Below, piece by piece: positions 33,600 through 60,440 of a DNA stretch of 64,000 nt (positions within the stretch are counted from its first letter, which is position 1; each line of letters starts with the position of its first letter). This stretch comes from Mycobacterium sp. ITM-2016-00317 (GTDB lineage: Bacteria > Actinomycetota > Actinomycetes > Mycobacteriales > Mycobacteriaceae): NCBI RefSeq assembly GCF_002968295.1, contig NZ_CP134399.1:1426001-1490000 (forward strand), in the 5' to 3' direction. Under the pieces are notes generated by a model. That model had not been told where the DNA came from. It worked only from the letters and a program-made list of their open reading frames with translations, and searched no databases. Position numbers and translations under genes: made by a program.

Positions 33600-35450
33600 G
33601 TGAATAAGTTCTCCCGCCGTCCGTTCGGCGATCGGCCGGACGATGGCGATGATCTGTCAACAAACGACGACGAGCGCCGGTTTCACTGGCTGCACGACCG
33701 GCACGGAGCGGTGTGGACCGCTCTGGCGCTGATTGTCGTTGTCATAGCTTTCGGTGTCTGGCTAGGTGTGCGCGCGTTTGACGCGAAAGACAGTTTGGAG
33801 CAGGCGCGCACCAGCGCCCAACAGGCCAAAGACGCGCTGCTGCAGGGTGACACCGAAGACGCATCCCGATTCGCCGACGAAGCGACGGTACATGCGCGGA
33901 GCGCACGCGACGCCACGCATTCGGTGCCGTGGAACATCGCGTCGGTCATCCCGTGGCTGGGCAGCCCGTTCAAGACCGGGCAGCAGGTATCCGATGTAGT
34001 GCTCGGTCTCGCCGCCGATGTGCTGAAGCCCTCCACCGACGTCGGCGTCTCGATCTCACCCGACCGGTTGTATGTGGACGGTCGCGTCGACGTCCAGGCG
34101 CTGCGCGACGAAGAGCCGCAGTTGGCCAAGTTGTCGGAGGACGCTGCGCGGCTCGATGCCGAAGCAGCCGGGATCTCAGATCCCGGGTACCTCTCGCTGC
34201 TACGCGATGCGCGTTCACAATTGCAGGACCAGACAACGGAACTAGCCGGCCTCCTCGAGAACACCGCGTTGGCGGCACGTCTCGTACCGTCGATGATGGG
34301 CGCCGACGGGCCGCGCACCTATTTCATGGGCTTCCAGACCAACGCCGAAGCGCGCGGCACGGGTGGGCTGCTCGGTGGTTTCGGAGTGCTTAGGTTCGAG
34401 GACGGGAAACCTGTCGTCGAAGATCTCGGGAAGAACACCGAACTGACGGATGCCGTGGCGACGGTCGACTTGGGCCCGGAATTCAACCAGCAGTACGGGT
34501 TCACCAATCCAAAGACGGACTACCGCAACAGCAACCAGAGTCCGCACTTTCCCAATGCTGCACAGATCTGGAAGTCGATGTGGGCGCAGAAGACCGGCAT
34601 GAATGTCGACGGCGTCATCGCGATCGATCCCATCGCGCTCAGCTATGTGCTTGGCGCGGTTGGGTCCGTGACCATGCCGGACGGGGAGGTCGTCACACGA
34701 GACAATGTTGTCGAACTGACCGAGTCGACCGCGTACGTTCGTTTCCCCACCGACCAGGTGGCGCGAAAGAACTACCTGCAAGACATCGCCAACCTCGTAG
34801 TTCAGAAGGTGACAGCGCCCGTCGAGTCACCACGGGCCCTACTGGACGCGTTAGGCAAGGCGGTCAGTGAACGCCGGATCGCCGTCTGGAGCGCGGTGCC
34901 CGAAGAGCAGGCACTTCTGGAGGAGACACCCCTCGCGCACGTGGTACCTGACGATCCCGCGCCGTATGCCAACGTTGTGATCAATAACCTCGGCGGCAAT
35001 AAGATGGATTACTACCTTCAGCGGAGCATTGAGTACGTGGCAGATGGCTGTGATGGCCAGACCAGAATGTCGACTGTCACGGTGCGGATGAACAACACCG
35101 CGCCGGCGAATGCCCCACTGCCTGATTATGTGGCCGGTACCGAAGGGCTTGTCGCCAACGTCCCGTTCGAGGTGCCACACGGCACCATGGTTTCGTCGGT
35201 GCGTCTGCTGGCCACCACGAACGCATCCGTGGTGAGCGTGCTCGCCAACGGTGAACGTGTGCCGTTCACTCGAAGCAATGAGCTCGGACATCCGTCGTTC
35301 GAAGTGCAGGTCCTGATCCCCCCGGGGCAGTCAGGGGAACTTGTCTTCCGCCTGTCGGAACCGACAGCCCCGGGTGCCGCACGCGTCCCCGTGCAGCCAT
35401 TGGTGGACGACGTCATCCCTGTGGTCACGGTGCCAGAGTGCTCGGGTTAG
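33600..35450 (+). CDS. DUF4012 membrane protein at the head of the exopolysaccharide locus
   Basis: 616 residues from GTG 33600. One membrane helix near residues 38-60, then an extracellular helical part with a coiled-coil look (AKDSLEQARTSAQQAKDALL), and the DUF4012 core: GPRTYFMGFQTNAEARGTGG, FPNAAQIWKSMW, then GVIAIDPIALSYVLGAVG, a C-terminal beta-rich region. DUF4012 proteins occur at the start of capsule and exopolysaccharide clusters in actinobacteria, with no proven activity; a role in attaching or exporting polymer is guessed from context. The Wzz-kinase fusion follows after about 100 bases. Confidence 0.85.
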   Translation: MNKFSRRPFGDRPDDGDDLSTNDDERRFHWLHDRHGAVWTALALIVVVIAFGVWLGVRAFDAKDSLEQARTSAQQAKDALLQGDTEDASRFADEATVHARSARDATHSVPWNIASVIPWLGSPFKTGQQVSDVVLGLAADVLKPSTDVGVSISPDRLYVDGRVDVQALRDEEPQLAKLSEDAARLDAEAAGISDPGYLSLLRDARSQLQDQTTELAGLLENTALAARLVPSMMGADGPRTYFMGFQTNAEARGTGGLLGGFGVLRFEDGKPVVEDLGKNTELTDAVATVDLGPEFNQQYGFTNPKTDYRNSNQSPHFPNAAQIWKSMWAQKTGMNVDGVIAIDPIALSYVLGAVGSVTMPDGEVVTRDNVVELTESTAYVRFPTDQVARKNYLQDIANLVVQKVTAPVESPRALLDALGKAVSERRIAVWSAVPEEQALLEETPLAHVVPDDPAPYANVVINNLGGNKMDYYLQRSIEYVADGCDGQTRMSTVTVRMNNTAPANAPLPDYVAGTEGLVANVPFEVPHGTMVSSVRLLATTNASVVSVLANGERVPFTRSNELGHPSFEVQVLIPPGQSGELVFRLSEPTAPGAARVPVQPLVDDVIPVVTVPECSG

Positions 35451-35553
35451 CCAAAAGGGGTCTACTCGTGGTCGGAGGCGGCATTTTGGGACAGGCAAAG
35501 CCGGCTATTCGTAGCGTGTGGAGTGCGGGGCTCTCAACATCGGAAGGGCAACG

Positions 35554-36963
35554 TTGAATCTGCAGGACTATCTAAAACTATTTAAGGTCAGGTGGGTAAC
35601 CGTCTGCGTGACGGTAGCCGCAGCTGTTCTGGTTGCGGTGGTGATGAGTCTGGTCACCACACCGCTGTACCAAGCCTCAACAAGACTATTTGTGTCAACG
35701 ACGGCAGGTTCTTCGTTAGCGGAGGCTTACCAGGGAAACCGCTTTTCGCAAGAACGAGTGATTTCTTATACGGAATTGCTGATGGGGCAGACCCTGGCGC
35801 AACGCACTATCGACAAGCTTCAGCTCGACATGACCGCAGATCAATTGCGACACAATGTAAAGGCCAGTGCGAAACCCGACACGGTGTTGATCAATGTTGA
35901 CGTGTTGGATGCATCGCCTGTTCGCGCGCGGGACATTGCTAATACCCTTTCGGACGAGTTTGTCGCCATGATCCGTGAACTCGAGACGCCGGAGGACGGT
36001 GCAACACCGGACGCACGGGTGGTTGTCGAGCAACGCGCGTCGATTCCGCAAGAACCGGTCGTGCCCCAAACAGCACGGAATATCGCTCTAGGTCTCGGAG
36101 TGGGCCTGGTCCTAGGAATTGCGCTCGCGCTCGTAAGAGACATGCTGGACAACACAGTGAAAACGCGAGAGAACCTCGAAGAGATAACAGGTGTCGGCGT
36201 AGTCGGGGCAATACCCCTCGACAAGGAAAGGCGCAAGCAGCCGGCGATTTCGTTCGAGACAGACAACGCTGCGACTGCTGAGGCATTCCGCAAGTTAAGG
36301 ACGAATCTTCAATTTTTGGCGATCGACAGCCCACCTCGTGTCTTGGTGGTGACCAGCTCGGTGCCAAGCGAAGGAAAATCCACCACGGCAATTAACCTTG
36401 CCCTTGCACTGGCCGAAGCGGATCACAAGGTACTGCTAGTGGACGGGGACATGCGTCGCCCTTCGCTGCATCAGTATCTGGATCTCTTGCAACCGGTTGG
36501 GTTCAGCACAGTGCTCAGCGGCCGCGCCCTTCTGGGCGAGGCCCTGCAAAAGACCAGGTTCCCGGGCCTGACAGTACTGACGTCAGGGTCGATTCCTCCG
36601 AACCCAAGCGAGTTGTTGGGTTCGCAATCGGCCAGGCGCTTACTTAGCGAATTGCGTTCACAGTACGACTATGTCGTAGTCGACTCGACGCCGTTGCTGG
36701 CAGTGACGGATGCGGCCATCATGGCGGCCGGCGCCGACGGTGTTCTCGTGATAGCAAGACACGGCAGTACGAAAAAGGATCAGCTTACTCACGCTGTTAG
36801 CAGCCTCCACAGCGTCGGTGCGCCTGTGTTGGGAGCTGTTTTCACGATGATGCCGACGCGCGGGAGCTCATCATACGGATACAGCTATTCCTATTATGGA
36901 ACAGAAACGCCGCGGCATGCTCCGCCCTCCGCAGAGGACAAATCAAAGTCGCTGGACGGCTGA
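35554..36963 (+). CDS. Wzz/Cap5A-type chain-length protein fused to a BY-type tyrosine kinase (CpsD-like)
   Basis: 469 residues from TTG 35554 with GGAAGG 7 bases upstream (a GTG at 35518 is the alternative). Order: N-terminal helix (VTVCVTVAAAVLVAVVMSLV), Wzz periplasmic domain (TPLYQASTRLFVST to about residue 165), second helix (ALGLGVGLVLGIALAL), then the kinase: Walker A SSVPSEGKSTTAIN, Walker A' VLLVDGDMRRPS, Walker B YVVVDSTPLL. The C-terminus has a Tyr cluster (YGYSYSYYG) for autophosphorylation. Such proteins set polymer length and control Wzy-dependent assembly through cycles of phosphorylation. Confidence 0.92.
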   Translation: MNLQDYLKLFKVRWVTVCVTVAAAVLVAVVMSLVTTPLYQASTRLFVSTTAGSSLAEAYQGNRFSQERVISYTELLMGQTLAQRTIDKLQLDMTADQLRHNVKASAKPDTVLINVDVLDASPVRARDIANTLSDEFVAMIRELETPEDGATPDARVVVEQRASIPQEPVVPQTARNIALGLGVGLVLGIALALVRDMLDNTVKTRENLEEITGVGVVGAIPLDKERRKQPAISFETDNAATAEAFRKLRTNLQFLAIDSPPRVLVVTSSVPSEGKSTTAINLALALAEADHKVLLVDGDMRRPSLHQYLDLLQPVGFSTVLSGRALLGEALQKTRFPGLTVLTSGSIPPNPSELLGSQSARRLLSELRSQYDYVVVDSTPLLAVTDAAIMAAGADGVLVIARHGSTKKDQLTHAVSSLHSVGAPVLGAVFTMMPTRGSSSYGYSYSYYGTETPRHAPPSAEDKSKSLDG

Positions 36964-37138: not shown

Positions 37139-38260
37139 ATGCCAGCTTTAGCGTTAACATACCCCATGCATGGGCAGCATAAGCTGTCAAACGAGGGGTA
37201 CCGAACCCGCGACGGCCACATCATTGAATGGTTGGGGAAATTTGCCGTCGAACTGGGGTCCACGGTCGACGTTGTGTCGCGCCCTGAGCCTTGGGTCCTC
37301 GCGACTCGTCGTCGGGTACGGGGTTCAATAGCCCCGGGAACGCGTCCAGTCAGCACGATGAGCTGGAAGATCCCAAAACTCGACCCGCGGCACTGGTGGG
37401 TTCGATCCGCGAATTCTTACCCGCCGGTCAGCCGACTCGCCGACGTGCCGGCAGTGGTATGGAACCCTTTCACGGCGATTGCGCCTGAGGATCGTAATCC
37501 ATTTAGCAGGAGGTGTGCAGTAGCGTTTGATCTCCTGGATGATTGGACGATTCACTATCAATTCGGATCAGTGCGCGACCAAGTCAACGAGGCTTATAAG
37601 GCGGCGTTTGATCGTAGCAGTCACGTATTCGCAAATTCTGAGGCGACTTTAGATCTGGCGTATCGCTTTGGTCGCTCAGACGCAGTCCTGTTAACCAACG
37701 GGGTCGATCCTGAGCGGTTCTCAACCGAGTCACAGGCCAGCGGGCCGTTTACGGTTGGATACGTAGGTAAGATCGGACAGCGCCTGAACGCAGAATTGAT
37801 TAGTACAGTGTGTGAGAGCTTCCCGGATATTCGTTTCGTATTCGCGGGCTACTTCGTAGACGTCAACGATACTTACCGCGGCTTGCTTTCTCGGTTTCCC
37901 AACGTGGAGCTTCTCGGAGATGTCCACTATGAGGATGTTCCCAGCCTCATGGCCACCTTCGACCTTGGGTGGGTCCCGCACGCGGTGGGGGACGGTGAGG
38001 TGGGCGGCGATGTCATCAAGACCTATGAGTACCGGGCTACGGGGCTACAGGTCTTGACCACGCCTATCCTTGGCGCGGGCCGGAGGTTGACCGAAGGTGT
38101 CCACGTCGTACCGGCCGACGAGCAAGTTGAGTGGTTGCGCCAAGCGGCCAACGGCCGCGAAAGGCTCGACCGGATACCTGCTGAAATTCCTCCAGAACTC
38201 ACGTGGCGAGTAAAGACTCAGACCATCGCGGACGCCATCGGGCTTAGGTTGGTGTTGTGA
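37139..38260 (+). CDS. Glycosyltransferase, GT4-like
   Basis: 373 residues, GT-B fold. N-domain contacts include RDGHIIEWLGKFAVELG; the C-domain has VFANSEATLDLAYRFG, LLTNGVDPERF (donor-sugar loop), FTVGYVGKIGQRLN, VELLGDVHYEDVPSLMATFDLGWVPH, and a Gly/Asp-rich site where GT4 enzymes have E-x7-E (GDVIKTYEYRATGLQVL). It probably adds one sugar to the lipid-linked repeat unit. The stop overlaps the next start by 4 bases. Preceded by 175 bases with no gene. Confidence 0.82.
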   Translation: MPALALTYPMHGQHKLSNEGYRTRDGHIIEWLGKFAVELGSTVDVVSRPEPWVLATRRRVRGSIAPGTRPVSTMSWKIPKLDPRHWWVRSANSYPPVSRLADVPAVVWNPFTAIAPEDRNPFSRRCAVAFDLLDDWTIHYQFGSVRDQVNEAYKAAFDRSSHVFANSEATLDLAYRFGRSDAVLLTNGVDPERFSTESQASGPFTVGYVGKIGQRLNAELISTVCESFPDIRFVFAGYFVDVNDTYRGLLSRFPNVELLGDVHYEDVPSLMATFDLGWVPHAVGDGEVGGDVIKTYEYRATGLQVLTTPILGAGRRLTEGVHVVPADEQVEWLRQAANGRERLDRIPAEIPPELTWRVKTQTIADAIGLRLVL

Positions 38261-39546
38261 CTGCCATTTCGATGCGCGAGGCGCCTTGGCGACTCGGCGC
38301 GGTCGCTGTGGCGTTGCTGTTTGTTGTCGATCCGTTGGGTAACGCGCCGAACGTAATTGCACTATTTGCAGTATTCGTGGCTGCATTCGTAGTCTTCACT
38401 TCGAAGCCCGTAGACGATACGACGAACATAGGGCTGCTCGTGCTCGTAGGCCTGATGCTTGTCATTGCCGCTCTGGAACTACTCCATCCGAATGTGCCTT
38501 CACTGACGGTAGGGTTTCTCGGCTTCCGCAAATCGGCGACCATGTTATTGGGTCTCGCGATCGGGCTGGGGTGGCGCGGATCTCGGCTGTCCGGTCTGCG
38601 GTTGGTGTGGTGGTGTGTGTTCGTTTCCGCATCGGCGTCGCTGTTCGTACACCTTTTCCTGCCGTCGGTTGAGCGATCTGTTGCGCGCGGAGCAGACCGG
38701 TACACGTCACTTCTAAGCGGTGTCGAACGAATGCAAGGGCTCTTTGCCGGGCCGTTTCACGTATCCATGGCAGGGGTCTTCTTGTTCCTGACAGCGTTGG
38801 CACCGCGTGTGGTCATAACCCAGAGATGGGTGCGTATTGCTGCTGCGGTTGTGGGACTATCCTGCATATACCTTTCGCAGGTGCGGACGGGTCTTGTCGC
38901 GCTCGCAATCGGAACTTTGGTCATGATGTTTGTTACCGGGTCCGCCCAACGATGGGCAAAGCGTCTATTGATACTCGCTGCACTGTGCGTGCTTGGAATT
39001 CTCTATTTGAATCCGCTTCGGGAGTATGCCTACCGTTTCACGGCACTTCGCCTTATGTTGGAGGGCGGGTTGTCCGATAGCAGGTTCACCGAGCGATTTG
39101 TGACGTGGTCCGATAGCCTCGATATGATCAGTCGTTCGCCTCTTATGGGGAATGGTTCCGGTTCTTCGGGAGACACCTTGAAGCCATTATTCGCGAGTGG
39201 CGACCACGTAACTAGTCACAACACGTTTCTGAAGTATGCTGTGGAAGGCGGAATCGTACAGGGCCTTTTGTTCGCAGCTTTGTGTTTGTGCTTGCTATTC
39301 GCCGTGCGACCAAAGAACGATCCTACTCGATTCGGGGTTGCGGCAGGAGTCACCTTCCTTGTGTTCGCTTTTGTTGTCGCGGCTCCCGAGTCGATCCCGG
39401 TGTCATTCGGATTGGCAGTCATTGTCGGACTGTGTACCCAGCGTCAACCCGGTACGGCCAACCCGCCCACGGACGCGTTCGGAATGCGATTGCAATTTAA
39501 TCGTACGAACAGTTGGAATGCTGGAGTCGTTGCCGATAAGGCGTGA
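38257..39546 (+). CDS. Wzy-like polysaccharide polymerase (O-antigen ligase/polymerase family)
   Basis: 429 residues from GTG 38257, overlapping the preceding stop. About eleven membrane helices, and a large loop with NGSGSSGDTL ... SHNTFLKYAVEGG near residue 330, the H-N-x-F-L-x(6)-G pattern typical of Wzy_C/WaaL proteins. Wzy joins repeat units in the periplasm. Only one such gene is visible in the locus. Codon use is more A/T-rich than in the carboxylase block. Confidence 0.85.
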   Translation: MTAISMREAPWRLGAVAVALLFVVDPLGNAPNVIALFAVFVAAFVVFTSKPVDDTTNIGLLVLVGLMLVIAALELLHPNVPSLTVGFLGFRKSATMLLGLAIGLGWRGSRLSGLRLVWWCVFVSASASLFVHLFLPSVERSVARGADRYTSLLSGVERMQGLFAGPFHVSMAGVFLFLTALAPRVVITQRWVRIAAAVVGLSCIYLSQVRTGLVALAIGTLVMMFVTGSAQRWAKRLLILAALCVLGILYLNPLREYAYRFTALRLMLEGGLSDSRFTERFVTWSDSLDMISRSPLMGNGSGSSGDTLKPLFASGDHVTSHNTFLKYAVEGGIVQGLLFAALCLCLLFAVRPKNDPTRFGVAAGVTFLVFAFVVAAPESIPVSFGLAVIVGLCTQRQPGTANPPTDAFGMRLQFNRTNSWNAGVVADKA

Positions 39547-39561: not shown

Positions 39562-40671
39562 TTGAGCGTAGATCGGAGAAATGTGCCCTCAGTTGCGATT
39601 ATTGGGACCCGCGGCTATCCAAGTTATTACGGAGGTTTCGAAACCGCCGTGCGGAAACTAGCGCCAGCATTATGCGACATGGGGTGGGACGTCACAGTTT
39701 ATGGCAGGTCGGCGAGTCGTCCGACGGTGGACACGGGGGACACGCGCGTCGCGCGTCCCACAACTCGGGGTCTCGAGACAAAGAGCCTGAGTACACTCTC
39801 GTACGGCCTGACAGCGTCCCTAGACGCAGCACGGAAGCGTCCCGACGTCGCACTTGTGATGAATGTGGCTAATGGATTTTTCTTACCCTTATTGGAGGCC
39901 CGGGGAATCCCCACTTTGGTCAATGTGGACGGTATTGAGTGGGAAAGAGCGAAATGGAATGGCGCTGCCAAGAGGGTGTTCAAAGCGGGCGCTAAGTGCA
40001 CCGCACGCTTTGCGTCTTCGTTAGTCTTCGATGCACGCGCAATCGAGGATTACTGGCGGATCCACTTCCGTGCTCATGGGCACTTCATTCCGTACGGCGG
40101 TGATGTGCCGCCACCGTCCGAGGTCCCCGATGGGTTGAATCATCGAGGGTATGTACTGATGGTGGCCCGGTTCGTTCCAGAAAACACAGTGCCGGAGTTT
40201 TTTGAAGCCGTCCCACGGGTGGCGGAGCAATACCCTGTCGTCATTGTTGGCAGTTCGGGTTACGGCGGCGAATTTGATAGAGCTGCGCAGGCCCTGGCCG
40301 ACCGGTGTTCGGCTGTGAAGTGGCTCGGCCACGTCAGCGACGATTCGTTGCTCCTAGCTCTCTGGCAGCACGCTGGCGCTTACTTCCACGGCCACAGTGT
40401 CGGTGGGACAAATCCTGCGTTGGTCCAGGCCATGGCCGCAGGAGCGCCGGTAGTTGCGCGAGACACGGTCTACAACCGCGAGGTACTCGGAGAAGCGGGT
40501 CTGTTCGTCGAGCCAAACGCCGTCTCTATACGTGACGGGTTGCTCAAGTTGATGAGCCACGAGGAGGAGAAAGAGCGGGCCTCGCTGGCGAACGCGCAAC
40601 GGGCGGAGGCACTTTACTCATGGGACACCATCTGCCGGGATTACGAGCGTGCACTCCGTCAACTGATTTAG
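39562..40671 (+). CDS. Glycosyltransferase with DUF1972 N-domain (rhamnosyltransferase-like)
   Basis: 369 residues from TTG 39562; a GTG at 39583 preceded by GGAGAA is an equally good start. The N-terminus VAIIGTRGYPSYYGGFETAVRKLAP is the DUF1972 signature, found in enzymes that add the second sugar of capsule repeat units, often rhamnose (landmarks GTRGYPSYYGG, FETAVRKL). The C-domain is GT4: YVLMVARFVPENTVPEFFEA, VVIVGSSGYGGEF, GAYFHGHSVGGTNPALVQAM. Sugar specificity is not readable. Confidence 0.86.
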   Translation: MSVDRRNVPSVAIIGTRGYPSYYGGFETAVRKLAPALCDMGWDVTVYGRSASRPTVDTGDTRVARPTTRGLETKSLSTLSYGLTASLDAARKRPDVALVMNVANGFFLPLLEARGIPTLVNVDGIEWERAKWNGAAKRVFKAGAKCTARFASSLVFDARAIEDYWRIHFRAHGHFIPYGGDVPPPSEVPDGLNHRGYVLMVARFVPENTVPEFFEAVPRVAEQYPVVIVGSSGYGGEFDRAAQALADRCSAVKWLGHVSDDSLLLALWQHAGAYFHGHSVGGTNPALVQAMAAGAPVVARDTVYNREVLGEAGLFVEPNAVSIRDGLLKLMSHEEEKERASLANAQRAEALYSWDTICRDYERALRQLI

Positions 40672-41277: not shown

Positions 41278-42702
41278 ATGAGGCTCTCGACCACCGCGCG
41301 ATTGGCCATGCTATGGACGAGCATGAGCCGGGTCGGCATCCAAGGCCTGCAACTCATTACATTTGTCATTGCGGCGCGGTGGCTTTCGCCAGCCGATTAC
41401 GGTACTTACGCGATTGTAGCGATCGTGGTGACGCTGTCGACACTCGTCAACGATTTCGGCCTCCAATCGGCTCTAGTTCACGATGCGAACCCGTCGGCTT
41501 CGCGTTTTGCGAGCGCATTCTGGCTTAATGCGGCTGTCGGCGTCACGTCCGCGGGAATGATCGCGGCCGTCGCCTACCCTGCCCAGTTGATACTTGAATA
41601 TAAGGACCTAGCGGTTGCGTTGGCCGTGGCTGGCAGCTCGTTTGCGCTATCCATCACTGTTGTCCCAGTTGCATTGCTGCAGAGACGCCTTCAGCTAGGT
41701 CGCCTCGCTGCCATCGAATTCACTGCCAATCTAGCCGGTGCGATGGCCTCAATCTACCTCGCTTGGCTAGGTCTCGGGGTAATCAGCCTGTCCATAGGTC
41801 CGGTTGTGACTGCATTACTGATGTCGTTTGCGCTAGCTGTTGCGACGCGGTATGTCCCTACGGCGAGACCGACCATTGGAGACGTTCGCGCACTGTGGGG
41901 ATTTAGCGGTTCGATACTAGCGTTCAATGTGACGAATTATCTAACGAAGAACTTTGACATTCTTGTCCTGACCGTGGTCAGCACTCCCCAACAGGTGGGT
42001 ATCTACTCACGCGCTTATTCCATATTCTCAGCACCGTTGACTCAGGTCGGCGCAGTCGTCGGGAGAGTCCTATTCCCGATGCTCGCTCAAGTACGGGATG
42101 ATACTGCCGCACTGAGGGATCGATGGCTGAGGACCACATTTGCGAGCACGGCAATATTTTTGCCGGTCTCGATTGCGTTCGCGGTTACGTCGCCGTACGT
42201 CATCGGCATTTTGTTCGAACCTCGGTGGCAGCCAATGGCGCTGATCGTCTCAATTCTCTGTATCGGCGGGCCTGTTCGGCTGGTTACTAGTGCATTGGGA
42301 TACTTATACCAAGCGACGGGACACACCAAAGAGCTGTTTCGCGTCACTTTAGCTGCCACGGCGGCTCTCACGGTCGGGGTTCTCGCGGGAGCAGCGTGGG
42401 GTCCGATTGGCATCGCCTGGGGTGTGGCTATTGCTACCAATGTCCAAGCCTATGTCCCGTTGTCGGTGGGACTTCGATTCATCAATATGACTGTGCGGAA
42501 TCTTCTCTTCGAGTTTAGGTGGCTTGTCGTTGCTGGTGTAGTGCAGCTGCTAGTGATGGGTGGGATCCGGCTGGGCGGCGGTTTTGGGTCTGATTGGGCT
42601 TCGCTGCTAGGTTCGCTGGCACTAGGCTTGGCGAGCTACGGGGTAACCGCCTGGATACTTGATCGCCGCTTTTTTGGCAGGCTTGTTGGCAGGGCTGTAT
42701 GA
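41278..42702 (+). CDS. Wzx-like polysaccharide flippase, copy 1
   Basis: 474 residues, about 12-14 membrane helices. The start TARLAMLWTSMSRVGIQGLQLITFVIAARWLSPADYGTYAI is typical of the MOP/PST exporter family (Polysacc_synt_3; landmark ARWLSPADYGTYAI), followed by NDFGLQSALVHD, NYLTKNFDILVLTVVSTPQQVGIYSRAY. It should flip undecaprenyl-linked repeat units outward for Wzy. Closely follows the GT-Wzy-GT block in the same direction. A second, unrelated flippase lies at 50892 on the other strand. Confidence 0.88.
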   Translation: MRLSTTARLAMLWTSMSRVGIQGLQLITFVIAARWLSPADYGTYAIVAIVVTLSTLVNDFGLQSALVHDANPSASRFASAFWLNAAVGVTSAGMIAAVAYPAQLILEYKDLAVALAVAGSSFALSITVVPVALLQRRLQLGRLAAIEFTANLAGAMASIYLAWLGLGVISLSIGPVVTALLMSFALAVATRYVPTARPTIGDVRALWGFSGSILAFNVTNYLTKNFDILVLTVVSTPQQVGIYSRAYSIFSAPLTQVGAVVGRVLFPMLAQVRDDTAALRDRWLRTTFASTAIFLPVSIAFAVTSPYVIGILFEPRWQPMALIVSILCIGGPVRLVTSALGYLYQATGHTKELFRVTLAATAALTVGVLAGAAWGPIGIAWGVAIATNVQAYVPLSVGLRFINMTVRNLLFEFRWLVVAGVVQLLVMGGIRLGGGFGSDWASLLGSLALGLASYGVTAWILDRRFFGRLVGRAV

Positions 42703-43982: not shown

Positions 43983-43989
43983 AGGTCGG

Positions 43990-50891: not shown

Positions 50892-52157
50892 CTACGAACG
50901 CGACAAAAGCATCTTAGGGATTAAAGCAAAGTCATCTCGGCGCAGCACCAGCGCGGCGCCCGGTACCTTAAGGGCGAAGAGGGACAATATGGCCGTCACC
51001 CAATATCCGAGGGCCGAAGCGCAGGCCGCAGAGGAAGCGCCCCCGCCCAACGCGCTGGCTATCGCTAAGCCCGCGATCCCCACTCCGGAGCCGACCACCT
51101 GGCACAAAGTCATAGCGCCACCTCGGCCCTGACCCGCTAGGCACATACACGCTACATAACCGAAAACGAGTCCCACAGAACCAATTAACCCGATCAAAAC
51201 AGAAGGTATGGACGCGGCAAAGGCCTCGCCGAACACGAGGGGCACGGCGAATGGGACGAGTGATGCTAACGCACCGGACAGTAGGAACCCGAGAATGCCT
51301 GAGGCGCGGATCAAAGGAACGATGTCGGCGTTGCCGGATCCCGCAACACGAAATGCATACGCACCGAGACCCTGGGCAAATGCGACAGGTATGAGGCTGA
51401 TCGTAACTGAGATCGAATAGAGCCCCGCAGTCTGGGCTCCCATAAGGGCCACGATCAAGGCCTGGTCAAGGCGGAACGCAGCAGCCTGGGCAAGTTGTGC
51501 ACCGTAATACGGCATGCTCGACTTAGCTAACGTGACGGCGGGGTATCGGGGCGGCTTTACTCTCGGACGCACAAAGAACCCAACGATCACGGCATTGAGA
51601 ACATTGGCCGCAGCGAATGCGCCAATCGCGCTCGATACCGTCAGCATGCCGCTCAGTCCGAACCCCACGACGCATATGGCGAACGAAACACTCGGGGCGA
51701 GGTTGAGAGCCCCGTAAGCCAAGTAATCCCCCCGGCCGAGGAGGATGTGGACGTCGCAGATCCAGACGATGCTTGCCGGCGTCGTCACAAGCGCGGCCGC
51801 GAACACAATCTGCACAGTGTGACTGGAGTCAGGTAGGAGCAGGTCTGGCAGGAATACGGCAAGCAGACATGCTGGCAACAGTGCGATGCCGGCAATCTTC
51901 CTGACCGCCCACGCCACACCACGGAGATCGCCATCTTCGACTACCAGTCTTCTCACGCGCGTAGGTAGTCCCAATGACAACAGCAGTGGGCTAAGGAGGA
52001 GCACTGCTGTCGCGGTCGCAACGAGACCTCTGCCGTCGGGACCCAACACCCTAGCCAGTACCGGAGCGGTAAGGAGCGACATGGCACCAGCCGAGATACG
52101 GCAGAACGTTACGCAGAACGGCCGATTCAACTTCTTGTAGGCCGACGAGAACGACAC
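50892..52157 (-). CDS. Wzx-like polysaccharide flippase, copy 2
   Basis: 421 residues, about 12 membrane helices. Starts KKLNRPFCVTFCRISAGAMSLLTAPVLARVLGPDGRGLVATAT (landmark ARVLGPDGRGL, a family signature), then YYGAQLAQAAAFRLDQALIVALMGAQTAGLYSISV. A MOP-family exporter distinct from the copy at 41278. Same strand as the pyruvyl transferase and nitroreductase upstream, which suggests a separate export module for a pyruvylated glycan. 143 bases separate it from the pyruvyl transferase. Confidence 0.87.
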   Translation of the reverse strand: MSFSSAYKKLNRPFCVTFCRISAGAMSLLTAPVLARVLGPDGRGLVATATAVLLLSPLLLSLGLPTRVRRLVVEDGDLRGVAWAVRKIAGIALLPACLLAVFLPDLLLPDSSHTVQIVFAAALVTTPASIVWICDVHILLGRGDYLAYGALNLAPSVSFAICVVGFGLSGMLTVSSAIGAFAAANVLNAVIVGFFVRPRVKPPRYPAVTLAKSSMPYYGAQLAQAAAFRLDQALIVALMGAQTAGLYSISVTISLIPVAFAQGLGAYAFRVAGSGNADIVPLIRASGILGFLLSGALASLVPFAVPLVFGEAFAASIPSVLIGLIGSVGLVFGYVACMCLAGQGRGGAMTLCQVVGSGVGIAGLAIASALGGGASSAACASALGYWVTAILSLFALKVPGAALVLRRDDFALIPKMLLSRS

Positions 52158-52300: not shown

Positions 52301-53437
52301 TCAGGAGGACACCGCCTGCTCAATCTGATTCCACATATTCACCGATCCACTGCGGTAAGAGTCAACGCAGCGTTTAAGATCGTCGACTTCAGCGCCGGCA
52401 AAGCCCTCCAGCTCCTCGATGTGGGCGGCAACCTCGTCCCTAGACAAACGAAGGAATGGATCGAGCAACCGCTTCTCATGGTGGAAATCTTCCATCAAAT
52501 GCTGGTACTTGTGGCTCCACCCGTGCGCGATCAATGGTGTCGCCTGAGTGAGGCAACTGACTGCGGCGTGGAACCTGCCGACTACGGCATAGGGGGAACT
52601 CCCTAGAAGGGATTTAAGCTGCACACCGTTATAGCCGTCAACGACCTGGAAATTGCCGACTTGTTGAGCAACTTCCTTCAGAATTCGGGTATCCTTCCTG
52701 CCCTCGTGCGACAGACCATATACCTGCCGCCCGGCAGCTCGTGCAGCTAAGGCAAATTCGACGAGGTTCCGGATGTAATTTTTCGCATCTTCGGCTGTCC
52801 GCGCGCGCGCCACTATGTTGTAGTTCGGGATTACGGGTACCGCCCCTGAAAGCTGATGCCAATCACTGTCGTGACCCTTGACAAGACATGTGAAGTCGGG
52901 TGCGGACTCCACGGAAGCGGAGATATCGAACCTCTCAACCAGAGCGTTAACATGGGTAAGCGAGGTGGGGTCACGTGCAAAGACAATCTTGCCAGTCGAA
53001 AGGGCGGCTGCGGATGTCTCAGCTGTAGATTCGAACGGTCCGAAGGCTTGGGGTAGGAAAAAGATTGGAGTACCGAGTTCGCCAAATGTTTGAAGTATTT
53101 TGGATCTGCCGTCGACGAACTGCTTCCACGAATCTGAGTAAAAGAAACCAGAGGCGTCTAAGACGATATCGATGTCGCGGTAGTCGACTATATCGCCTTT
53201 CGCCCATAGACCTTTTGAGAATTCGGTGTGTGGGACACGCGCCGACATGGGCAGCATTGTGAGCGCACCAACGCGCCGCCGTTGGAGCATATTTCCGACT
53301 TTTGCGCTCAATACCGGCGTGCCCCGGAATCGCCGCGTAATTTCCTGGATGGCGGCGATCATCATCAGATATGCGCCCTGATTGCGAAAATCAGTGCCGA
53401 TTATGAGAATCTTGCGGCTATCTTCGGTTATTTTCAA
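52301..53437 (-). CDS. Polysaccharide pyruvyl transferase family protein
   Basis: 378 residues. ILIIGTDFRNQGAYLMMIAAIQEI at the N-terminus is the family's first Rossmann motif (G-x-x-F-x-N-x-G). Later: DIVLDASGFFYSD, PIFFLPQAFGPFES, IVFARDPTSLTHV, PNYNIVARA and YAVVGRFHAAVSCLTQATPLIAHGWSHKYQHLM, matching the CsaB-like C-terminal R-x-H-A site. These enzymes transfer pyruvate from PEP to form ketal-linked pyruvate on sugars, giving the polymer negative charge. 14 bases downstream of the nitroreductase gene. Confidence 0.88.
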   Translation of the reverse strand: MKITEDSRKILIIGTDFRNQGAYLMMIAAIQEITRRFRGTPVLSAKVGNMLQRRRVGALTMLPMSARVPHTEFSKGLWAKGDIVDYRDIDIVLDASGFFYSDSWKQFVDGRSKILQTFGELGTPIFFLPQAFGPFESTAETSAAALSTGKIVFARDPTSLTHVNALVERFDISASVESAPDFTCLVKGHDSDWHQLSGAVPVIPNYNIVARARTAEDAKNYIRNLVEFALAARAAGRQVYGLSHEGRKDTRILKEVAQQVGNFQVVDGYNGVQLKSLLGSSPYAVVGRFHAAVSCLTQATPLIAHGWSHKYQHLMEDFHHEKRLLDPFLRLSRDEVAAHIEELEGFAGAEVDDLKRCVDSYRSGSVNMWNQIEQAVSS

Positions 53438-53451: not shown

Positions 53452-54630
53452 CTATACTTCGCTGAACGACCTGATGGCGTCAATGTTACCTTTGGCTGAC
53501 AATGCAACCAATCTCTCCGGATCTGCGTACCCGAAGGCGATCAACATAATGACTCGTTCGGTATTGGCTAGATTAAGATGTTTACGGATGCGGGCGTCGC
53601 GCTCGGGAATGTCGGGCCAATTGATCATGCACGATGCGACACCTTGGACCTCCAGGCCGTAGACGAATGCCATCGCGGCCAGGGATGAGTCGATGTATAT
53701 GAGGTGCCGGTCTCGTTCATGAAAGAACGCCGATAGATCCCCGATAACCACGGCTATGCCGGGGATTTGGTGAGCGTAGCCACCGGTGCCCATTGCGCAC
53801 TCGGCGATTCGTTGGACGCCCGGGTGCGTGTCGATGAACTCGAACCTGTAGGGAGCGCGGTTGCAGGCGGTGGGGGATTCTGAAGCGATTTCAACTGCGC
53901 GATCGATGACCGCACGATCGACTTGGCGGTCTTCGAACCACCGCACGGACCGTCTGCCGACCGCAAGCCGACGTAAGGCTTCGATGTCAATACCGGATTT
54001 CTCAACGTCAATGGAGTGGTGATGCGGGCCTGAGTCAGATAGGTCTTGTCGGCTGACCTCTGGACCGAAGGTCTTCAAGAAGTCGGATTCTGCTGAACGG
54101 ATCGCGGGGGACTCTGCCTCGCGGGTTGCCTCAAAGTAGGACGCCAAAACCGCGAGGACCCATTGGGCCTCGGCATCGCGGTGAGCGTCGCCTTCGGCGC
54201 CGTAAACACGAACCGCCGCGGCCACCGTGACTCCGATGTAGTCGGAAGCAAACTCGGAACGCCGAGGCCACGAGATCAAGCCCTTCTCGAGTCGGTGGAC
54301 GTTGCGGCGTAACAGAAATCGATGATAGCCCTTCGTTTGATCTGCCTGGTATTGCTTTATTCCACTCCTGACTGCTTTCTGCTCCCTGTGTATGCCACTG
54401 CTGGCGAGCACCAGTCTCGGCCTGCGCAACATGATCTTGCGATAGGTGGCCGGGAAATCAGTTGCCAACGAACGCAGCACCCGGAACGTCCTGACCTTGC
54501 CAGACGACTCGTATGCGCCCGCGCTAAAGGTCTTTCGAACGTCGGCGGGTGGGATGTTCTCAGTCGCACTCGAAGGTCGCGGGTCCAAGCCGCTGTCCGA
54601 GCACTCCCCAATCTGTGGCTGTAAAGCCAT
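53452..54630 (-). CDS. Nitroreductase-family protein with a long N-terminal extension
   Basis: 392 residues from ATG 54630, preceded by GGAGGGGG. The first 190 residues are a helical extension containing FLLRRNVHRLEKGLISWPRR, a motif I associate with nitroreductases in glycan clusters. The flavin-binding fold follows: LAVGRRSVRWFEDRQVD (phosphate site), ASESPTACNRAPYRFEFID, then AGGYAH-type and YIDSSLAAMAFVYGLEVQGVASCMINW (landmarks RRSVRWF, SPTACNRAPYRF, IDSSLAAMA). Probably an FMN oxidoreductase that modifies a sugar or a pyruvyl group; the reaction is not known. Paired with the pyruvyl transferase 14 bases downstream. Confidence 0.78.
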   Translation of the reverse strand: MALQPQIGECSDSGLDPRPSSATENIPPADVRKTFSAGAYESSGKVRTFRVLRSLATDFPATYRKIMLRRPRLVLASSGIHREQKAVRSGIKQYQADQTKGYHRFLLRRNVHRLEKGLISWPRRSEFASDYIGVTVAAAVRVYGAEGDAHRDAEAQWVLAVLASYFEATREAESPAIRSAESDFLKTFGPEVSRQDLSDSGPHHHSIDVEKSGIDIEALRRLAVGRRSVRWFEDRQVDRAVIDRAVEIASESPTACNRAPYRFEFIDTHPGVQRIAECAMGTGGYAHQIPGIAVVIGDLSAFFHERDRHLIYIDSSLAAMAFVYGLEVQGVASCMINWPDIPERDARIRKHLNLANTERVIMLIAFGYADPERLVALSAKGNIDAIRSFSEV

Positions 54631-55119
54631 GAAACCCCCTCCGCATGTTGTAAAGCCGTCTCGCCCCCTCGACATTCAATGCAGCGACACCGTTTCCGAG
54701 TGGGACCCGTTTCGTGCAGTGGACGTACAACGTGAGTGGCTCGTATACCGCCGCAATAGTAGCCGCAACAGGTTTGCCAGGTGCGATGGGCGGCTGCGGC
54801 CTTAGTCTGCGTATAGCAACGTTGATTAACACGGCAACCGAGGCACTTTCGCTGATTGCGCACCCCGGATACTCCAGCACAGGCTACGCGTGCTTAGTCG
54901 ATCTACGGGGCGTTGCTGTGCATGCCTAATCACGTCGTATGCCCTGGGCTAGCCATTACGCGCGCACCCCGCACCGAGCCGGATGTCGGGCGTCTAGGAG
55001 CAGTAGTTGCCCGCAGTTGTAGGAGACGGCCGACCGCTGCGAACAGCGATGCCGCCCTATTGTCAATCCGCCAGTCGCTCGCAGGAATCTACGGATCAAG
55101 GGTTGGCTGTATCTGGGCA
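54631..55119. other. 489-base stretch upstream of the nitroreductase, nothing recognised
   Basis: Small frames on both strands (54714-54929 plus, 54560-54880 minus) lack family resemblance. It should contain the promoter of the nitroreductase - pyruvyl transferase - flippase run, but no clear -10/-35 pair stands out. Confidence 0.45.
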
Positions 55120-56018: not shown

Positions 56019-57344
56019 CTAGCGCCTACCCATTCCCCGATACAGCCAGCCCGCGCCTCGCCAGGAATCGGCGTCAAGACAGTTTCGGCCGTCGATAATG
56101 CGTTTGTGGCGCACTATCCCGTTTAGGTCGTGAGGGGTCAACTTTCTGAATTCCTCCCACTCCGTCAGCACCAGAGTGACGTCAGCGCCATGGCACGCTT
56201 CACGGACGTCGTTCGCATAGTCGAGGGTGGGGAACATCCGCCGAGAATTCTCGATAGCTTTAGGATCGTACACAGTCACGGCTGCGCCCTGTAACTGTAT
56301 TTGACCCGCAATATTTAGCGCCGGTGAATCACGTATGTCGTCGGAGTCCGGTTTGAATGCGGCACCAAGCACAGCCACGGTCGTCCCAATGAGTGAGCCG
56401 CCTACGACCTCACGAGTAAGCTCCATCATTCTGGTGCGGCGCCTCATATTGATGCTGTCGACCTCTCGGAGGAAGGTCAGCGCTTGATTTGCTCCAAGTT
56501 CGCCCGACCGGGCCATGAACGCGCGGATGTCTTTCGGTAGACATCCTCCGCCGAATCCGATACCTGCATTGAGGAACCGACGCCCTATTCGGGCGTCGTG
56601 ACCGATCGCGTCGGCCAGCATGGATACGTCGGCTCCGGCGGCTTCGCATACCTCGGCCATGGCATTGATGAACGATATTTTCGTCGCCAGAAATGCGTTC
56701 GCAGCGGTCTTGACGAGTTCGGCAGTTTCCCGATCGGTAACAAGAAAAGGGATACCTTCGTCGACTATCGCGGAGTAGACTTCTCGGGCGACTGCTTCGG
56801 CTCTCCCCGGATTGTTCACATCAATGCCCAGTACGATCCGGTCCGGATGTAATGTATCCTGAACCGCAAAACCTTCTCGCAAGAACTCTGGGTTCCATGC
56901 TAATTCGACGAGTCCCTTCGGCGCGATTTCGCTGATCAACGCGCTAAGTCGAGCGGCGGTGCCCACGGGGACGGTCGACTTCCCGAAGATTGTTGATGGC
57001 TTTGCGATCAGAGGGGCAAGGGATCGAATTACCGACTCCACGAATGACACGTCAGCAGCGAATTCGCCGCGCTTCTGCGGCGTCGCGACTCCAATAAAGT
57101 GGACGTCTGCGAAGTCGGCGGCTTCTTTGTATGACGAGGTAAAGCGCAGGCGACCAGCTTTGATGTTGGACTGGATTATCTCGTCCAAGCCGGGTTCATA
57201 AAAGGGTGCATGTCCGCTGGATAGCATTTCGAGCTTCGCGGTATCAATGTCCACGCCCACCACTTCGTGGCCTAATTCCGCCATACACGCGGCATGCGTG
57301 GCGCCCAGGTACCCGGTGCCGAACACGGCTATGCGGCAAGTCAT
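56019..57344 (-). CDS. UDP-glucose 6-dehydrogenase
   Basis: 441 residues from ATG 57344, with a G-rich site (GGGGGGGAT) 5 bases upstream; an ATG at 57374 lacks one. NAD Rossmann motif AVFGTGYLGATHAACMAELGH near residue 6, KSTVPVGTAA, WNPEFLREGFAVQDTLHPDRIVLG, and the catalytic Cys in GFGGGCLPKDIRAF near residue 256; C-domain LGAAFKPDSDDIRDSPAL. It oxidises UDP-glucose to UDP-glucuronate, supplying uronic acid for an acidic polysaccharide. Divergent from the beta-helix protein gene. Confidence 0.94.
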   Translation of the reverse strand: MTCRIAVFGTGYLGATHAACMAELGHEVVGVDIDTAKLEMLSSGHAPFYEPGLDEIIQSNIKAGRLRFTSSYKEAADFADVHFIGVATPQKRGEFAADVSFVESVIRSLAPLIAKPSTIFGKSTVPVGTAARLSALISEIAPKGLVELAWNPEFLREGFAVQDTLHPDRIVLGIDVNNPGRAEAVAREVYSAIVDEGIPFLVTDRETAELVKTAANAFLATKISFINAMAEVCEAAGADVSMLADAIGHDARIGRRFLNAGIGFGGGCLPKDIRAFMARSGELGANQALTFLREVDSINMRRRTRMMELTREVVGGSLIGTTVAVLGAAFKPDSDDIRDSPALNIAGQIQLQGAAVTVYDPKAIENSRRMFPTLDYANDVREACHGADVTLVLTEWEEFRKLTPHDLNGIVRHKRIIDGRNCLDADSWRGAGWLYRGMGRR

Positions 57345-57687
57345 TTCGTATCCCCCCCCGGCGCCGCAGTTCATTAGCGGTAGCCTTAGTTGTCATTGGA
57401 TCGCAGTCGCCGGCCGAGGATCGGTATGATCGTCACGGCACCCAGCACGCAGCATAGGCATGCGCACGTCGTTACGACGTATCAGGGAGCCTAGCGCACA
57501 AGCGTTTTGGCGTTCGGTTTAACGCCCGTCGGGTGGCGACATAGGGCCGCCGGGTTGCCGCGCAGCTGGTTTGACACAGTTGGCGCTCCTGCTACCGACG
57601 CGCGTAGGCCACGAATGATCTAGAGTGACCGTATTGATACCGTTCCAGAGCAATCGATTCGGCGAGAAACGCAAGGGGAAGCGGTAC

Positions 57688-59316
57688 GTGGCAGCTGTCA
57701 GCCGCCGGCTACTCCTCAGTTCAGCAGCAGTAACTGCAGCTAGTGCTGCGTGTGCGGCACCTGAACGTGAGACGTCGGGAAATCGCCAAGCATTGGGAAG
57801 TCCGATCAGAGAATCTCAGAACCCACGCGATTTTGGAGCGCTTGGTGATGGCAGGCACGACGACACAGCAGCTTTCCAGCGAGCATACGATGCGCTTGTT
57901 GCCGAAGGCGGCGGCGTCCTTGAGTTGTCGCAGGGAAATTTTTATATTCCGGGCGGTCTTGAGATTGCTGAGCCCGGCACCAGCGTCGTGGGACTCCAAG
58001 GTGCTCGTGTCGGTGGCGGCGAACTGACTATCGGCCCACGGGAATACGAAAAGGACACTGGCGGTGTCGATTTCACCGGCACCCAGATCAGCGGCATAGT
58101 TTTCGATGGTGGCAAGGAATTTGGCGCCCAGCGCTGCTTGGTATTGCGGAACGTCCGGGGTTTGGATATCCAGGGGAATGTCTTCACATCGGCGGAGAAG
58201 GGTATCGCGGTTGAAGGCAAAGATGGCAATGAGAAGTTCCATACCTCGGCAATGCTGAGAATCTCGGGTAACCGATTTGCGAAACTTGTCTTCGGTGTCT
58301 ACGCGGACACCAAGGACTGGGATGTCCTATCCGACTGGTCCATCTCCGACAACTACTTCAATTACTGCTCCGACACCTCCGTGTGGATAGCTTCGTCGTC
58401 GGATGCTGGGCCAGGGGGGGTGGATGGCCTCAACTTTTCTGGCAACACCATATTCTCTTTGAGTCACAATGCGCGGCAGGCTGACTTATTTCAGCAAAAG
58501 CGATACAACTTGCGGCTGGGTCAGACTAACTGGCTTCGAATTATAAATAACAATTTCTTCGAGGCGGGCTTAGCGGCCGTGCTTCTTGATAGCCCGATCA
58601 ATTTCTCGTTCGTTGGTAATCACGTCGCGTGGCCTGGCCAGAGAACACTGTCTGATGCATTGGAGATTCGCAATGGAAGACCTGTTGGAGTCATAGAGGG
58701 GAATACTTTTGCTGACTGGACTCACTCCGCGGTCGGCCTTTACGACCTAGACAGATTCGACGGAATTGAGATCGGCCAGAACTCATGGACGTGGCGAGAG
58801 TCGCCGAACTCTTGGACGGGAGACGAGGCCCTTCCCGGGTACCGTGTCTTTGCATCCGAAGGCGGCGGTACCGGCCGCCCTGTCGTTCGCGATTTCCACC
58901 CGTCAGGCTCTTACGACAGCATTCGGGGTGGGGTAGGCAGCCAATCTCGGGACATCAAAACTCCCTCTGGCGGTGTGTCCGGGGTGCTCCGGCGTGGTCT
59001 TGAAGTGAGCGACCCAGCAACAGTCTTCGTCCTCGGAGATATAGTTGATTCGCCCAATTTCGGGGGGGTTGTCTGCATAACGGCCACTGATGCTCAAGAG
59101 TCCGGCAGTATTGCGACATATCTACTGTTCCTCTCGGCCAAAGGTGAGTTCTGCAAGGTGATCGAATCTGCCGGCGATATCCAAGGGGAACAGGCTAACC
59201 ATCCGAGCTTTTCTTGGGACTTGGCCGGCCCTGAGCTTCGGGCGACGCCAATAGGGTCGACCGGCGGTTCATTTAACTTCGATGCCGTGGCATTCGGCGC
59301 GGTATCCCCGAAATGA
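57688..59316 (+). CDS. Exported right-handed beta-helix protein (pectate lyase-3 like)
   Basis: 542 residues from GTG 57688, which has AGGGGAAG 8 bases upstream (an in-frame GTG at 57625 is the alternative). The N-terminus SRRLLLSSAAVTAASAAC has a twin-Arg and hydrophobic core followed by Cys, so Tat export and possibly lipidation are likely. Then NPRDFGALGDGRHDDTAAFQRAYDAL, the standard opening of Pectate_lyase_3/GH28-like helices (landmark DFGALGDGRHDDTAAFQ), and many coils with N-rich ladders (LRISGNRFAKLVFGVYAD, IINNNFFEAGLAAVLLDS). Probably cuts, epimerises or binds the acidic polymer; catalytic residues are not assignable by eye. Confidence 0.8.
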   Translation: MAAVSRRLLLSSAAVTAASAACAAPERETSGNRQALGSPIRESQNPRDFGALGDGRHDDTAAFQRAYDALVAEGGGVLELSQGNFYIPGGLEIAEPGTSVVGLQGARVGGGELTIGPREYEKDTGGVDFTGTQISGIVFDGGKEFGAQRCLVLRNVRGLDIQGNVFTSAEKGIAVEGKDGNEKFHTSAMLRISGNRFAKLVFGVYADTKDWDVLSDWSISDNYFNYCSDTSVWIASSSDAGPGGVDGLNFSGNTIFSLSHNARQADLFQQKRYNLRLGQTNWLRIINNNFFEAGLAAVLLDSPINFSFVGNHVAWPGQRTLSDALEIRNGRPVGVIEGNTFADWTHSAVGLYDLDRFDGIEIGQNSWTWRESPNSWTGDEALPGYRVFASEGGGTGRPVVRDFHPSGSYDSIRGGVGSQSRDIKTPSGGVSGVLRRGLEVSDPATVFVLGDIVDSPNFGGVVCITATDAQESGSIATYLLFLSAKGEFCKVIESAGDIQGEQANHPSFSWDLAGPELRATPIGSTGGSFNFDAVAFGAVSPK

Positions 59317-59681
59317 GAAATCAACATTACAGGTCTCGCTTCCAACCGGGCCGAGGCGCTTACCTCGCTCGATGCGTTTGCGCCTCGCCGACATATATGT
59401 GTTCTCGGGCGAGCATTGGGAGCTAGCCGGGGGAGGTCTTGATGCTGCTAACAGCTGGCAAGCCCTATCGAAATGAAGTTAGCAGCAACAATTAGTTGGG
59501 GACGTGGATTCGCAGTCGTAGTTACGTTACTGTGGTCTTGGCTGCAGGGGTCGATGTGGCGAGTTATGCGATGCAATATTTGGGCGGTACGGGATGTGAA
59601 TGCCGCGTTCGTAGCATGCTCCAATGTCCAGAACCTTTAGCCGCGATCGTCGGTTCATTCGGTCATAAGTTAATGTGAGGG
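59317..59681. other. 365-base stretch with a possible terminator hairpin
   Basis: CGAGGCGC (59352-59359) and GCGCCTCG (59380-59387) form an 8-bp stem 36 bases after the beta-helix gene, a possible terminator. The remainder has no protein-like frame and probably carries the promoter of the methyltransferase gene. Confidence 0.45.
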
Positions 59682-60440
59682 GTGCGGATACAATTGTCAT
59701 CGTTGAAAGCGCGCGTGCGGAAGCAGCTGCCAACACCTATTAAGAATCGCTGGTTTATTGTTAGCGGCGTACGCAAGCTGGTTCGCAAAGAGCGGCGGGA
59801 ATGCAATCTTTGCGGGTACACTGGGCGGTTCTGGCCATATGGGGATCCGCCTCGGCCGTCGGCTGTCTGCGGAAACTGTGGGTCGGTTGAACGTCACCGA
59901 TTGATGCGTTTGTGGGTCGAACGGAATCCAAGTGCAATCGATAACGCGGCAGTTTTGCACTTCGCGCCCGAACCTGCTTTGACCCAGTTGTTCAGGGGGC
60001 GGTCAAGTCGATATCAATCGGCGGACCTAAATCCCGAAGTCGCCGACACGGTGCTCAATATCGAAGAGATCGCGCTTCCTGATGAGTCGGTCGACGTGAT
60101 TGTTTGCTCTCACGTTCTCGAGCATGTTAATGATGCAAAGGCGCTGAGGGAGTTTCATCGTATTCTAAAGCCAGGCGGTCGCGCACTATTGATGTTTCCG
60201 ATCGTCGAGGGTTGGGATACGACCTACGAAAACGAAGCCCATACGTCGAAGGCAGACCGCTTCCGGTATTTCGGGCAGGACGACCATGTGCGGTACTTCG
60301 GCAAGGACGTTCGAGATCGGATTCTGAGCGCCGGACTCAAGCTGACTGAGTTCACCGCGACTGAACCAGATGTTTCTCGCTACGGGTTGGTGCGAGGCGA
60401 GAAGGTCTTCGTCGCCCTGAAACCCGAACAGGATTCGTGA
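59682..60440 (+). CDS. Class I SAM-dependent methyltransferase with N-terminal zinc-ribbon-like motif
   Basis: 252 residues from GTG 59682 (GAGGG just upstream). CNLCGYTGRF and CGNCGSVERHRLM near residues 41-75 make two CxxC pairs, probably a zinc ribbon. The methyltransferase core follows: VLHFAPEPALTQLFRG (motif I variant), YQSADLNPEVADTVLNIEEI, LPDESVDVIVCSHVLEHVNDAKALREFHRILKPGGRALLMFP (landmarks VIVCSHVLEHV, LKPGGRALL). Such proteins occur in glycan clusters and methylate sugars. Last intact gene of the island before the IS nest. Confidence 0.84.
   Translation: MRIQLSSLKARVRKQLPTPIKNRWFIVSGVRKLVRKERRECNLCGYTGRFWPYGDPPRPSAVCGNCGSVERHRLMRLWVERNPSAIDNAAVLHFAPEPALTQLFRGRSSRYQSADLNPEVADTVLNIEEIALPDESVDVIVCSHVLEHVNDAKALREFHRILKPGGRALLMFPIVEGWDTTYENEAHTSKADRFRYFGQDDHVRYFGKDVRDRILSAGLKLTEFTATEPDVSRYGLVRGEKVFVALKPEQDS

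Follow-up and report, generated by a model that had tools for sequence, protein, structure and literature searches.

A stretch of 64,000 nucleotides from the chromosome of Mycobacterium sp. ITM-2016-00317 (NZ_CP134399.1:1426001-1490000, hereafter the window; the source genome comprises 6.06 Mb in a single contig) very probably carries a Wzx/Wzy-dependent locus for a capsule-type polysaccharide, in which the ends are conserved and the centre is exchangeable. The mycobacterial surface is usually described in terms of arabinogalactan, lipoglycans, glucan and glycolipids, and no precedent for Wzx/Wzy loci in mycobacteria was found among titles and abstract openings of the open-licence literature. 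Judged by protein family, the parts of such a locus are all present, namely a priming transferase, Wzx, Wzy, a Wzz chain-length protein fused to a bacterial tyrosine kinase (BY-kinase) and a phosphatase (Table 1). An earlier note on this DNA had proposed Wzx/Wzy-type assembly with a BY-kinase; the genes listed there correspond to open frames at the places it gave, Pfam supports most of its labels, and the set is now extended by the priming transferase, tyrosine phosphatase and dTDP-rhamnose genes, which lie outside the window. However, the end assigned to the locus at 60440 proved premature, as the locus continues to the priming transferase at about 71.2 kb, or, with a further priming transferase, the prenyl diphosphate synthase and the oxidoreductase included, to about 75.9 kb, thereby overshooting the window edge by 7-12 kb. 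Positions above 64000 are window-equivalent coordinates in the DNA downstream of the window.

The organization of the locus was examined in six other genomes that carry it at the same chromosomal site, beside accD5; sampled genomes are denoted by G-numbers, with G000 for the source genome, and the stretch from G085 stops before the locus end and that from G225 before the PH-domain gene. The left end is present in all six, with identities of 92-97% for AccD5, 62-65% for the DUF4012 protein and 73-78% for the kinase. On the right, the phosphatase is found in five of six (56-63%), the priming transferase in four (79-80%, with a 37% match in G082), the PH-domain gene in four (85-90%), and the cis-prenyl diphosphate synthase and FAD oxidoreductase (73881-75932) in five (65-69%). 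None of the six matches the three glycosyltransferase candidates GTa, GTb and GTc, either Wzx, the pyruvyl transferase, the beta-helix protein or the second methyltransferase; UDP-glucose dehydrogenase has matches in five and the Rml proteins in one (64-77%). Wzy gives partial matches of 25-26% in two, and at a threshold of 1e-10 it is matched in none of the 247 other genus genomes, leaving the source genome as the only carrier among 248. From five of the other loci, 66 proteins were scanned, comprising those lying whole in a fetched stretch, with DUF4012, kinase, most insertion sequence (IS) genes and flanks left aside. Four matches each to Wzy_C, Bac_transf, LMWPc and UDP-glucose dehydrogenase and three each to Polysacc_synt and cytidylyltransferase were obtained, indicating that each of these loci has a Wzx/Wzy-type centre of its own, with different sugars. 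The pattern resembles that of serotype-type loci, with a fixed site, conserved ends and a centre swapped between relatives. The cytidylyltransferases possibly serve nonulosonic acids, and the G054 and G099 loci have several gene families in common (F43, F85-F89).

Fourteen DUF4012-bearing loci were fetched with their flanks, genes in other genomes being called by our own codon-score script, by which starts and small genes are approximate. Seven of them (G000, G225, G140, G082, G054, G085 and G099) adjoin accD5 (Pfam Carboxyl_trans), five (G034, G056, G096, G192 and G198) adjoin what we take from their sequence to be ribosomal protein genes, and the remaining two sit at neither site. The names accD5, birA, purK, purE and rpl are presumptive and uncurated, having been assigned by sequence or family. 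The ten DUF4012-negative genomes examined have only 0.1-6.7 kb between accD5 and the PH-domain gene, at a G+C content of 0.647-0.717, versus 44.4 kb in the source genome, and none of these ten stretches matches the profiles for DUF4012, kinase, priming transferase, phosphatase, UDP-glucose dehydrogenase or Wzx. A core-genome origin was rejected on the evidence of these ten genomes, and with it the conserved core cluster with a different product that the earlier note had named as the outcome that would speak against its proposal. The prenyl diphosphate synthase and oxidoreductase pair was likewise not seen in any of the ten stretches, and the pair may represent a dedicated supply of lipid carrier. 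A lone priming transferase (76%) stands at the accD5 site of G192, whose locus is located at another site.

Base composition follows the same division. The locus is A/T-richer than its flanks, as had been claimed before, with a G+C content of 0.595 (33600-69454) versus 0.690 (1-31700) and 0.686 (72171-103999). Third-position G+C is 0.59-0.69 in the central genes, except for 0.80 in the AT3-SGNH gene, whereas most upstream genes reach 0.8-0.97; the DUF4012 gene is intermediate (0.75) and the priming transferase gene near native (0.84). Because values are lowest in the centre and intermediate or near native at the ends, the centre has the look of imported DNA and the ends that of resident DNA.

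The distribution of the locus is wide. The genus was sampled with one genome per species (248 genomes), and a close kinase was defined by at least 56% identity, a cut chosen after viewing the match list that excludes paralogues at 30-55%. DUF4012 is present in 76 of the 248 genomes. Kinase matches at E <=1e-30 occur in at least 149 of them when the paralogues of 30-55% are included, and close kinases in at least 72. Among the matches listed, all 72 close-kinase genomes carry DUF4012, four genomes have DUF4012 without a close kinase (kinase fragments may be missed), and 172 have neither; of 79 DUF4012 places, 74 have a close kinase on the same contig and 64 within 3.5 kb, 63 of these 64 pairs being on the same strand. 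The DUF4012/Wzz-kinase pair is therefore found in about 30% of the sampled genus genomes, and, with site and ends conserved and the centre swapped, an isolated acquisition is not supported. Named kinase carriers include M. austroafricanum, M. vaccae, M. iranicum, M. bacteremicum, M. rhodesiae and M. hippocampi, and DUF4012 appeared in 13 of 48 loci in the scan of named kinase relatives. At the level of the GTDB family, kinase relatives (E <=1e-100) were detected in 109 of 301 genomes, spread over 12 of the 31 genera sampled, while across the phylum DUF4012 was present in 110 of 396 sampled genomes, compared with none of 14 control genomes. Of 20 DUF4012 stretches from beyond the genus, 15 contain one or more of kinase, priming transferase, phosphatase, UDP-glucose dehydrogenase and Wzx (kinase or priming transferase in 10), and five contain none of these five gene types. 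The same types were absent from all ten control stretches, a weak control because it was drawn from other taxa and one site. A contig labelled as a Verrucomicrobia metagenome-assembled genome contains a 73% kinase and a 70% DUF4012 protein and is probably a mis-binned mycobacterial contig. If a capsule-type locus of this exchangeable kind is present in about one-third of the species of the genus, the surface antigens, phage receptors, clumping and biofilms of environmental mycobacteria need rereading.

Based on gene families, a working route can be proposed. The priming transferase would load hexose-1-phosphate onto polyprenyl phosphate, and glycosyltransferases would extend a short repeat, probably with rhamnose (Rml genes) and glucuronic acid (UDP-glucose dehydrogenase), which could then be decorated with methyl, O-acyl and pyruvate groups. 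A uronic-acid-containing, pyruvylated and acylated polymer, as previously suggested, is thus likely by its gene families. One Wzx would flip the repeat unit before polymerization by Wzy, the Wzz-kinase and the low-molecular-weight phosphatase would set chain length through phosphorylation cycles, and the DUF4012 protein would bind the lipid-linked polymer on the extracytoplasmic side and pass it to, or retain it at, the cell wall. It is very unlikely that the product is instead a lipid- or protein-linked oligosaccharide (glycolipid or O-glycan) with the Wzy-like proteins acting as ligases: PF04932, named 'O-Antigen ligase', does span ligases and polymerases, and pyruvylated glycolipids are known in mycobacteria, according to the accessible part of one report (PMC6801904), but the combination of a Wzz co-polymerase with a kinase and a phosphatase constitutes a polymer-length system, and a dedicated priming transferase and flippases are present.

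Several observations weigh against a functional capsule locus. A Wza-type outer-membrane exporter (PF02563), a part expected only in the Gram-negative form of such systems, gave no match in the source genome, with 4 of 14 control genomes positive, which leaves passage through the outer membrane unexplained. The regions at 40.7-50.6 and 60.7-64.5 kb contain IS3-, IS21-, IS30- and IS256-like remnants or copies together with broken AT3 acyltransferase fragments, which mark where DNA came and went; with these and one unproven glycosyltransferase, this copy may be decaying. That it is a non-functional remnant, broken by IS elements and making no polymer, is nevertheless improbable, as the debris stands against intact open frames for the priming transferase, Wzz-kinase, Wzx, Wzy, phosphatase and sugar-nucleotide genes. 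The locus is real, probably working and of capsule type. An island of IS elements only was rejected, transposases being few relative to polysaccharide genes.

The most informative addition to the bare label given previously is a predicted LCP-like (LytR-CpsA-Psr-like) fold in the DUF4012 protein. Models give a layout of an N-terminal membrane helix, a helical region, an LCP-like domain (approximately residues 235-442) and a C-terminal beta domain. In the fold comparison, residues 222-450 are predicted to be LCP-like, and with VIA-align LCP proteins occupied 12 of 50 listed rows, every one across residues 234-443; of the 26 top entries in the domain fold comparison, 4obm was unconfirmed as LCP by profile and 9a9g is Psr by title only. 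A deeper profile comparison of DUF4012 with LCP yielded a score of 33.4 (E 3.4e-4, probability 37.7%), whereas 100 column shuffles reached at most 21.5 and the reversed profile 14.5. Similar to Cps2A, TagT/U/V and LcpA, the DUF4012 protein thus has the predicted fold, profile similarity, a membrane anchor and a presumably external position, but it differs from these LCP proteins in its extra helical N-terminal part and C-terminal beta domain. Its residues E250, R252, D343 and K468 are fully conserved in 27 diverged sequences, pointing to a catalytic or binding site.

Other results speak against this fold. A first DUF4012-LCP comparison with shallow profiles was negative (probability 1.4%); the full-length model gave no Foldseek match at 1e-3 and no LCP among 50 listed rows; predicted local distance difference test (pLDDT) values of the models are 65-70; and domain TM-scores are at most 0.46. 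At the sequence level, DUF4012 has no match to PF03816 at E 0.01 and no relative among PDB sequences, the single hit having an E of 0.35. Among the LCP invariants of the second half (R230, R232, D239, R242 and Q246 in reference L124), four of five lack a DUF4012 counterpart, and the remaining one is not conserved across DUF4012 sequences; the first half, with D61, D90, R111 and D112, is not alignable by profile, and its invariants were compared by eye. The protein might carry out the wall-attachment step, a tentative assignment in which ligase activity is conjectural. A serious contender, rated somewhat short of probable, is that DUF4012 serves as an extracytoplasmic Wzz/Wzy partner that binds the lipid-linked polymer and guides only chain length or release, with no ligase function. 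It agrees with the proximity to the Wzz-kinase (those 64 of the 79 listed places), with the alignable part lacking conserved counterparts of LCP residues and with the label of auxiliary envelope protein given to it in the available portion of a study on Bifidobacterium longum (PMC5412050), whereas the protein's own fully conserved charged residues argue for a catalytic or binding site. No mention of the LytR name was found in the accessible text of open-licence papers that mention DUF4012. The boldest proposal, namely that mycobacteria widely carry exchangeable Wzx/Wzy capsule loci and that DUF4012 constitutes a second LCP-fold class of glycopolymer ligases, with its site at E250/R252/D343/K468, anchoring the polymer to the wall or arabinogalactan, is on present evidence unlikely as a whole; if true, such anchoring would make a Wza exporter unnecessary. 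In any case, the predicted fold makes the role of this domain of unknown function directly testable.

Other features are collected in Table 1. Of the three glycosyltransferases claimed originally, two are of GT4 type, the first falling below the Pfam cut-off; the label of the third, GTc, which has no match in Pfam or NCBIfam, is unproven. The Wzz-kinase contains PSEGKST at residue 283, VDGDMRRP at 308 and VVVDSTP at 386, which we take to be its Walker motifs, and the wzy-like gene overlaps GTa by 4 bases. The nitroreductase-like protein has distant relatives (28-29%) in the comparable loci of G225 and G207, and the beta-helix protein, whose N-terminus shows by eye a Tat-like signal and a lipobox-like Cys, has a 59% relative in the G192 locus. 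Directly upstream of the DUF4012 gene, a small Ala-rich and probably secreted protein is encoded at 33076-33495, and comparable small secreted proteins (families F13/F14) occupy the same spot in other loci. Rfam and tRNA scans of the 64-kb window gave no matches. The priming transferase gene is followed by genes for a GAF protein, the second priming transferase, the cis-prenyl diphosphate synthase and the FAD oxidoreductase; across the whole genome, Bac_transf genes number four. A second Wzx/Wzy-type locus of normal G+C content lies on the same chromosome at approximately 5218100-5230000, with a Wzz-kinase 50% identical to the first, Wzy_C, a glycosyltransferase, GmhA (above the NCBIfam cut-off), GmhB-/HddA-like heptose genes and a Wzx. 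M. tuberculosis has orphan heptose genes, and the neighbourhood of this second locus may hint at their product.

Table 1. Features of the locus and adjoining DNA, in window coordinates and their downstream equivalents
Feature	Position	Strand	Evidence or remark
DUF4012 protein, 616 amino acids	33600..35450	+	Pfam 1.8e-45
Wzz chain-length protein fused to BY-kinase, Tyr-rich tail	35518..36963	+	Pfam Wzz, AAA_31; NCBIfam TIGR01007 182 bits (cut-off 108)
GTa, GT4-like glycosyltransferase	37139..38260	+	Pfam Glyco_trans_1_4 4.9e-5, below cut-off; weak TuaH match 1.3e-8
Wzy-like polymerase	38257..39546	+	Pfam Wzy_C 1.5e-16; at least 8 hydrophobic segments
GTb, DUF1972/GT4 glycosyltransferase, rhamnosyltransferase-like	39562..40671	+	Pfam; NCBIfam Cps2T 4.1e-43, 148 bits (cut-off 500)
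Wzx flippase 1	41278..42702	+	Pfam Polysacc_synt_3 5.6e-57; MOP flippase NCBIfam 1e-50, below cut-off
GTc, 309-amino-acid protein, possible glycosyltransferase	43089..44018	-	coding-like by composition only
AT3 acyltransferase gene fragment	43990..44406	-	
Second small AT3 fragment	45899-45991	+	
AT3-SGNH O-acyltransferase, intact	46026..48170	-	Pfam; SucT NCBIfam 217 bits, far under cut-off 1275
IS30-like transposase, two overlapping frames	49294..50555	+	
Wzx-like flippase 2	50892..52157	-	Pfam Polysacc_synt 7.9e-11
Polysaccharide pyruvyl transferase	52301..53437	-	Pfam PS_pyruv_trans 4.9e-13; CsaB-like 7.7e-10, below cut-off
Nitroreductase-like protein	53452..54675	-	Pfam 3e-18
UDP-glucose 6-dehydrogenase	56019..57374	-	Pfam 3.5e-58
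Beta-helix protein, lyase/epimerase-like	57625..59316	+	Pfam 1.9e-5, below cut-off
S-adenosylmethionine methyltransferase	59682..60440	+	Pfam Methyltransf_11 3e-13
IS256-type (Mutator) transposase	61390..62664	-	Pfam 3.6e-123
IS3-like transposase pieces	62898..63831	-	
Methyltransferase-like	64606-65289		outside window
RmlC-RmlD fusion	65369-66817		outside window
RmlB-like	66836-67831		outside window
RmlA-like	67834-68730		outside window
Low-molecular-weight tyrosine phosphatase	68870-69454		outside window; Pfam LMWPc 8.7e-26
Priming transferase (polyprenyl-phosphate hexose-1-phosphate)	69737-71227		PF02397 (Bac_transf) 4.5e-69; TIGR03025 425 bits (cut-off 296)

Among known systems, the Klebsiella K loci and pneumococcal cps combine conserved ends, a variable centre and a fixed site with Wzx, Wzy and a BY-kinase. 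The mycobacterial locus shares this layout and differs in its host, in having no Wza exporter and in carrying DUF4012 in place of a known attachment protein. A parallel in gene content comes from Bifidobacterium longum, which has no outer mycomembrane to cross. The capsule/exopolysaccharide locus of strain 105-A, as described in the available part of the study, also has conserved ends and a strain-specific centre, and it resembles the present locus in its priming transferase, DUF4012 adjoining wzz, glycosyltransferases, polymerase, flippase, pyruvyl transferase, acetyltransferase, rhamnose genes and tyrosine kinase, although it belongs to another order of Actinomycetota and its kinase is separate from wzz (PMC5412050). 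The nearest measured chemistry is that of the Rhodococcus equi capsules; Rhodococcus capsules and exopolysaccharides, including the R. equi serotypes, are reported in the accessible portion of one source to contain glucuronic acid, rhamnose and pyruvate acetals and to vary by serotype, features that fit the gene content found here, where the chemistry is predicted (PMC12786566). Kinase relatives at 52-53% occur in eight Rhodococcus loci, with DUF4012 in none of the eight within the stretches fetched, while the Rhodococcus plasmid pDK1 (NZ_CP118323.1) carries a DUF4012 gene (56%) beside genes for UDP-glucose dehydrogenase, pyruvyl transferase and a priming transferase (sugar transferase), showing that such loci can be plasmid-borne. 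Against this background, what appears to be new here is the spread and exchange pattern of these loci in mycobacteria, together with the predicted LCP-like fold of DUF4012.

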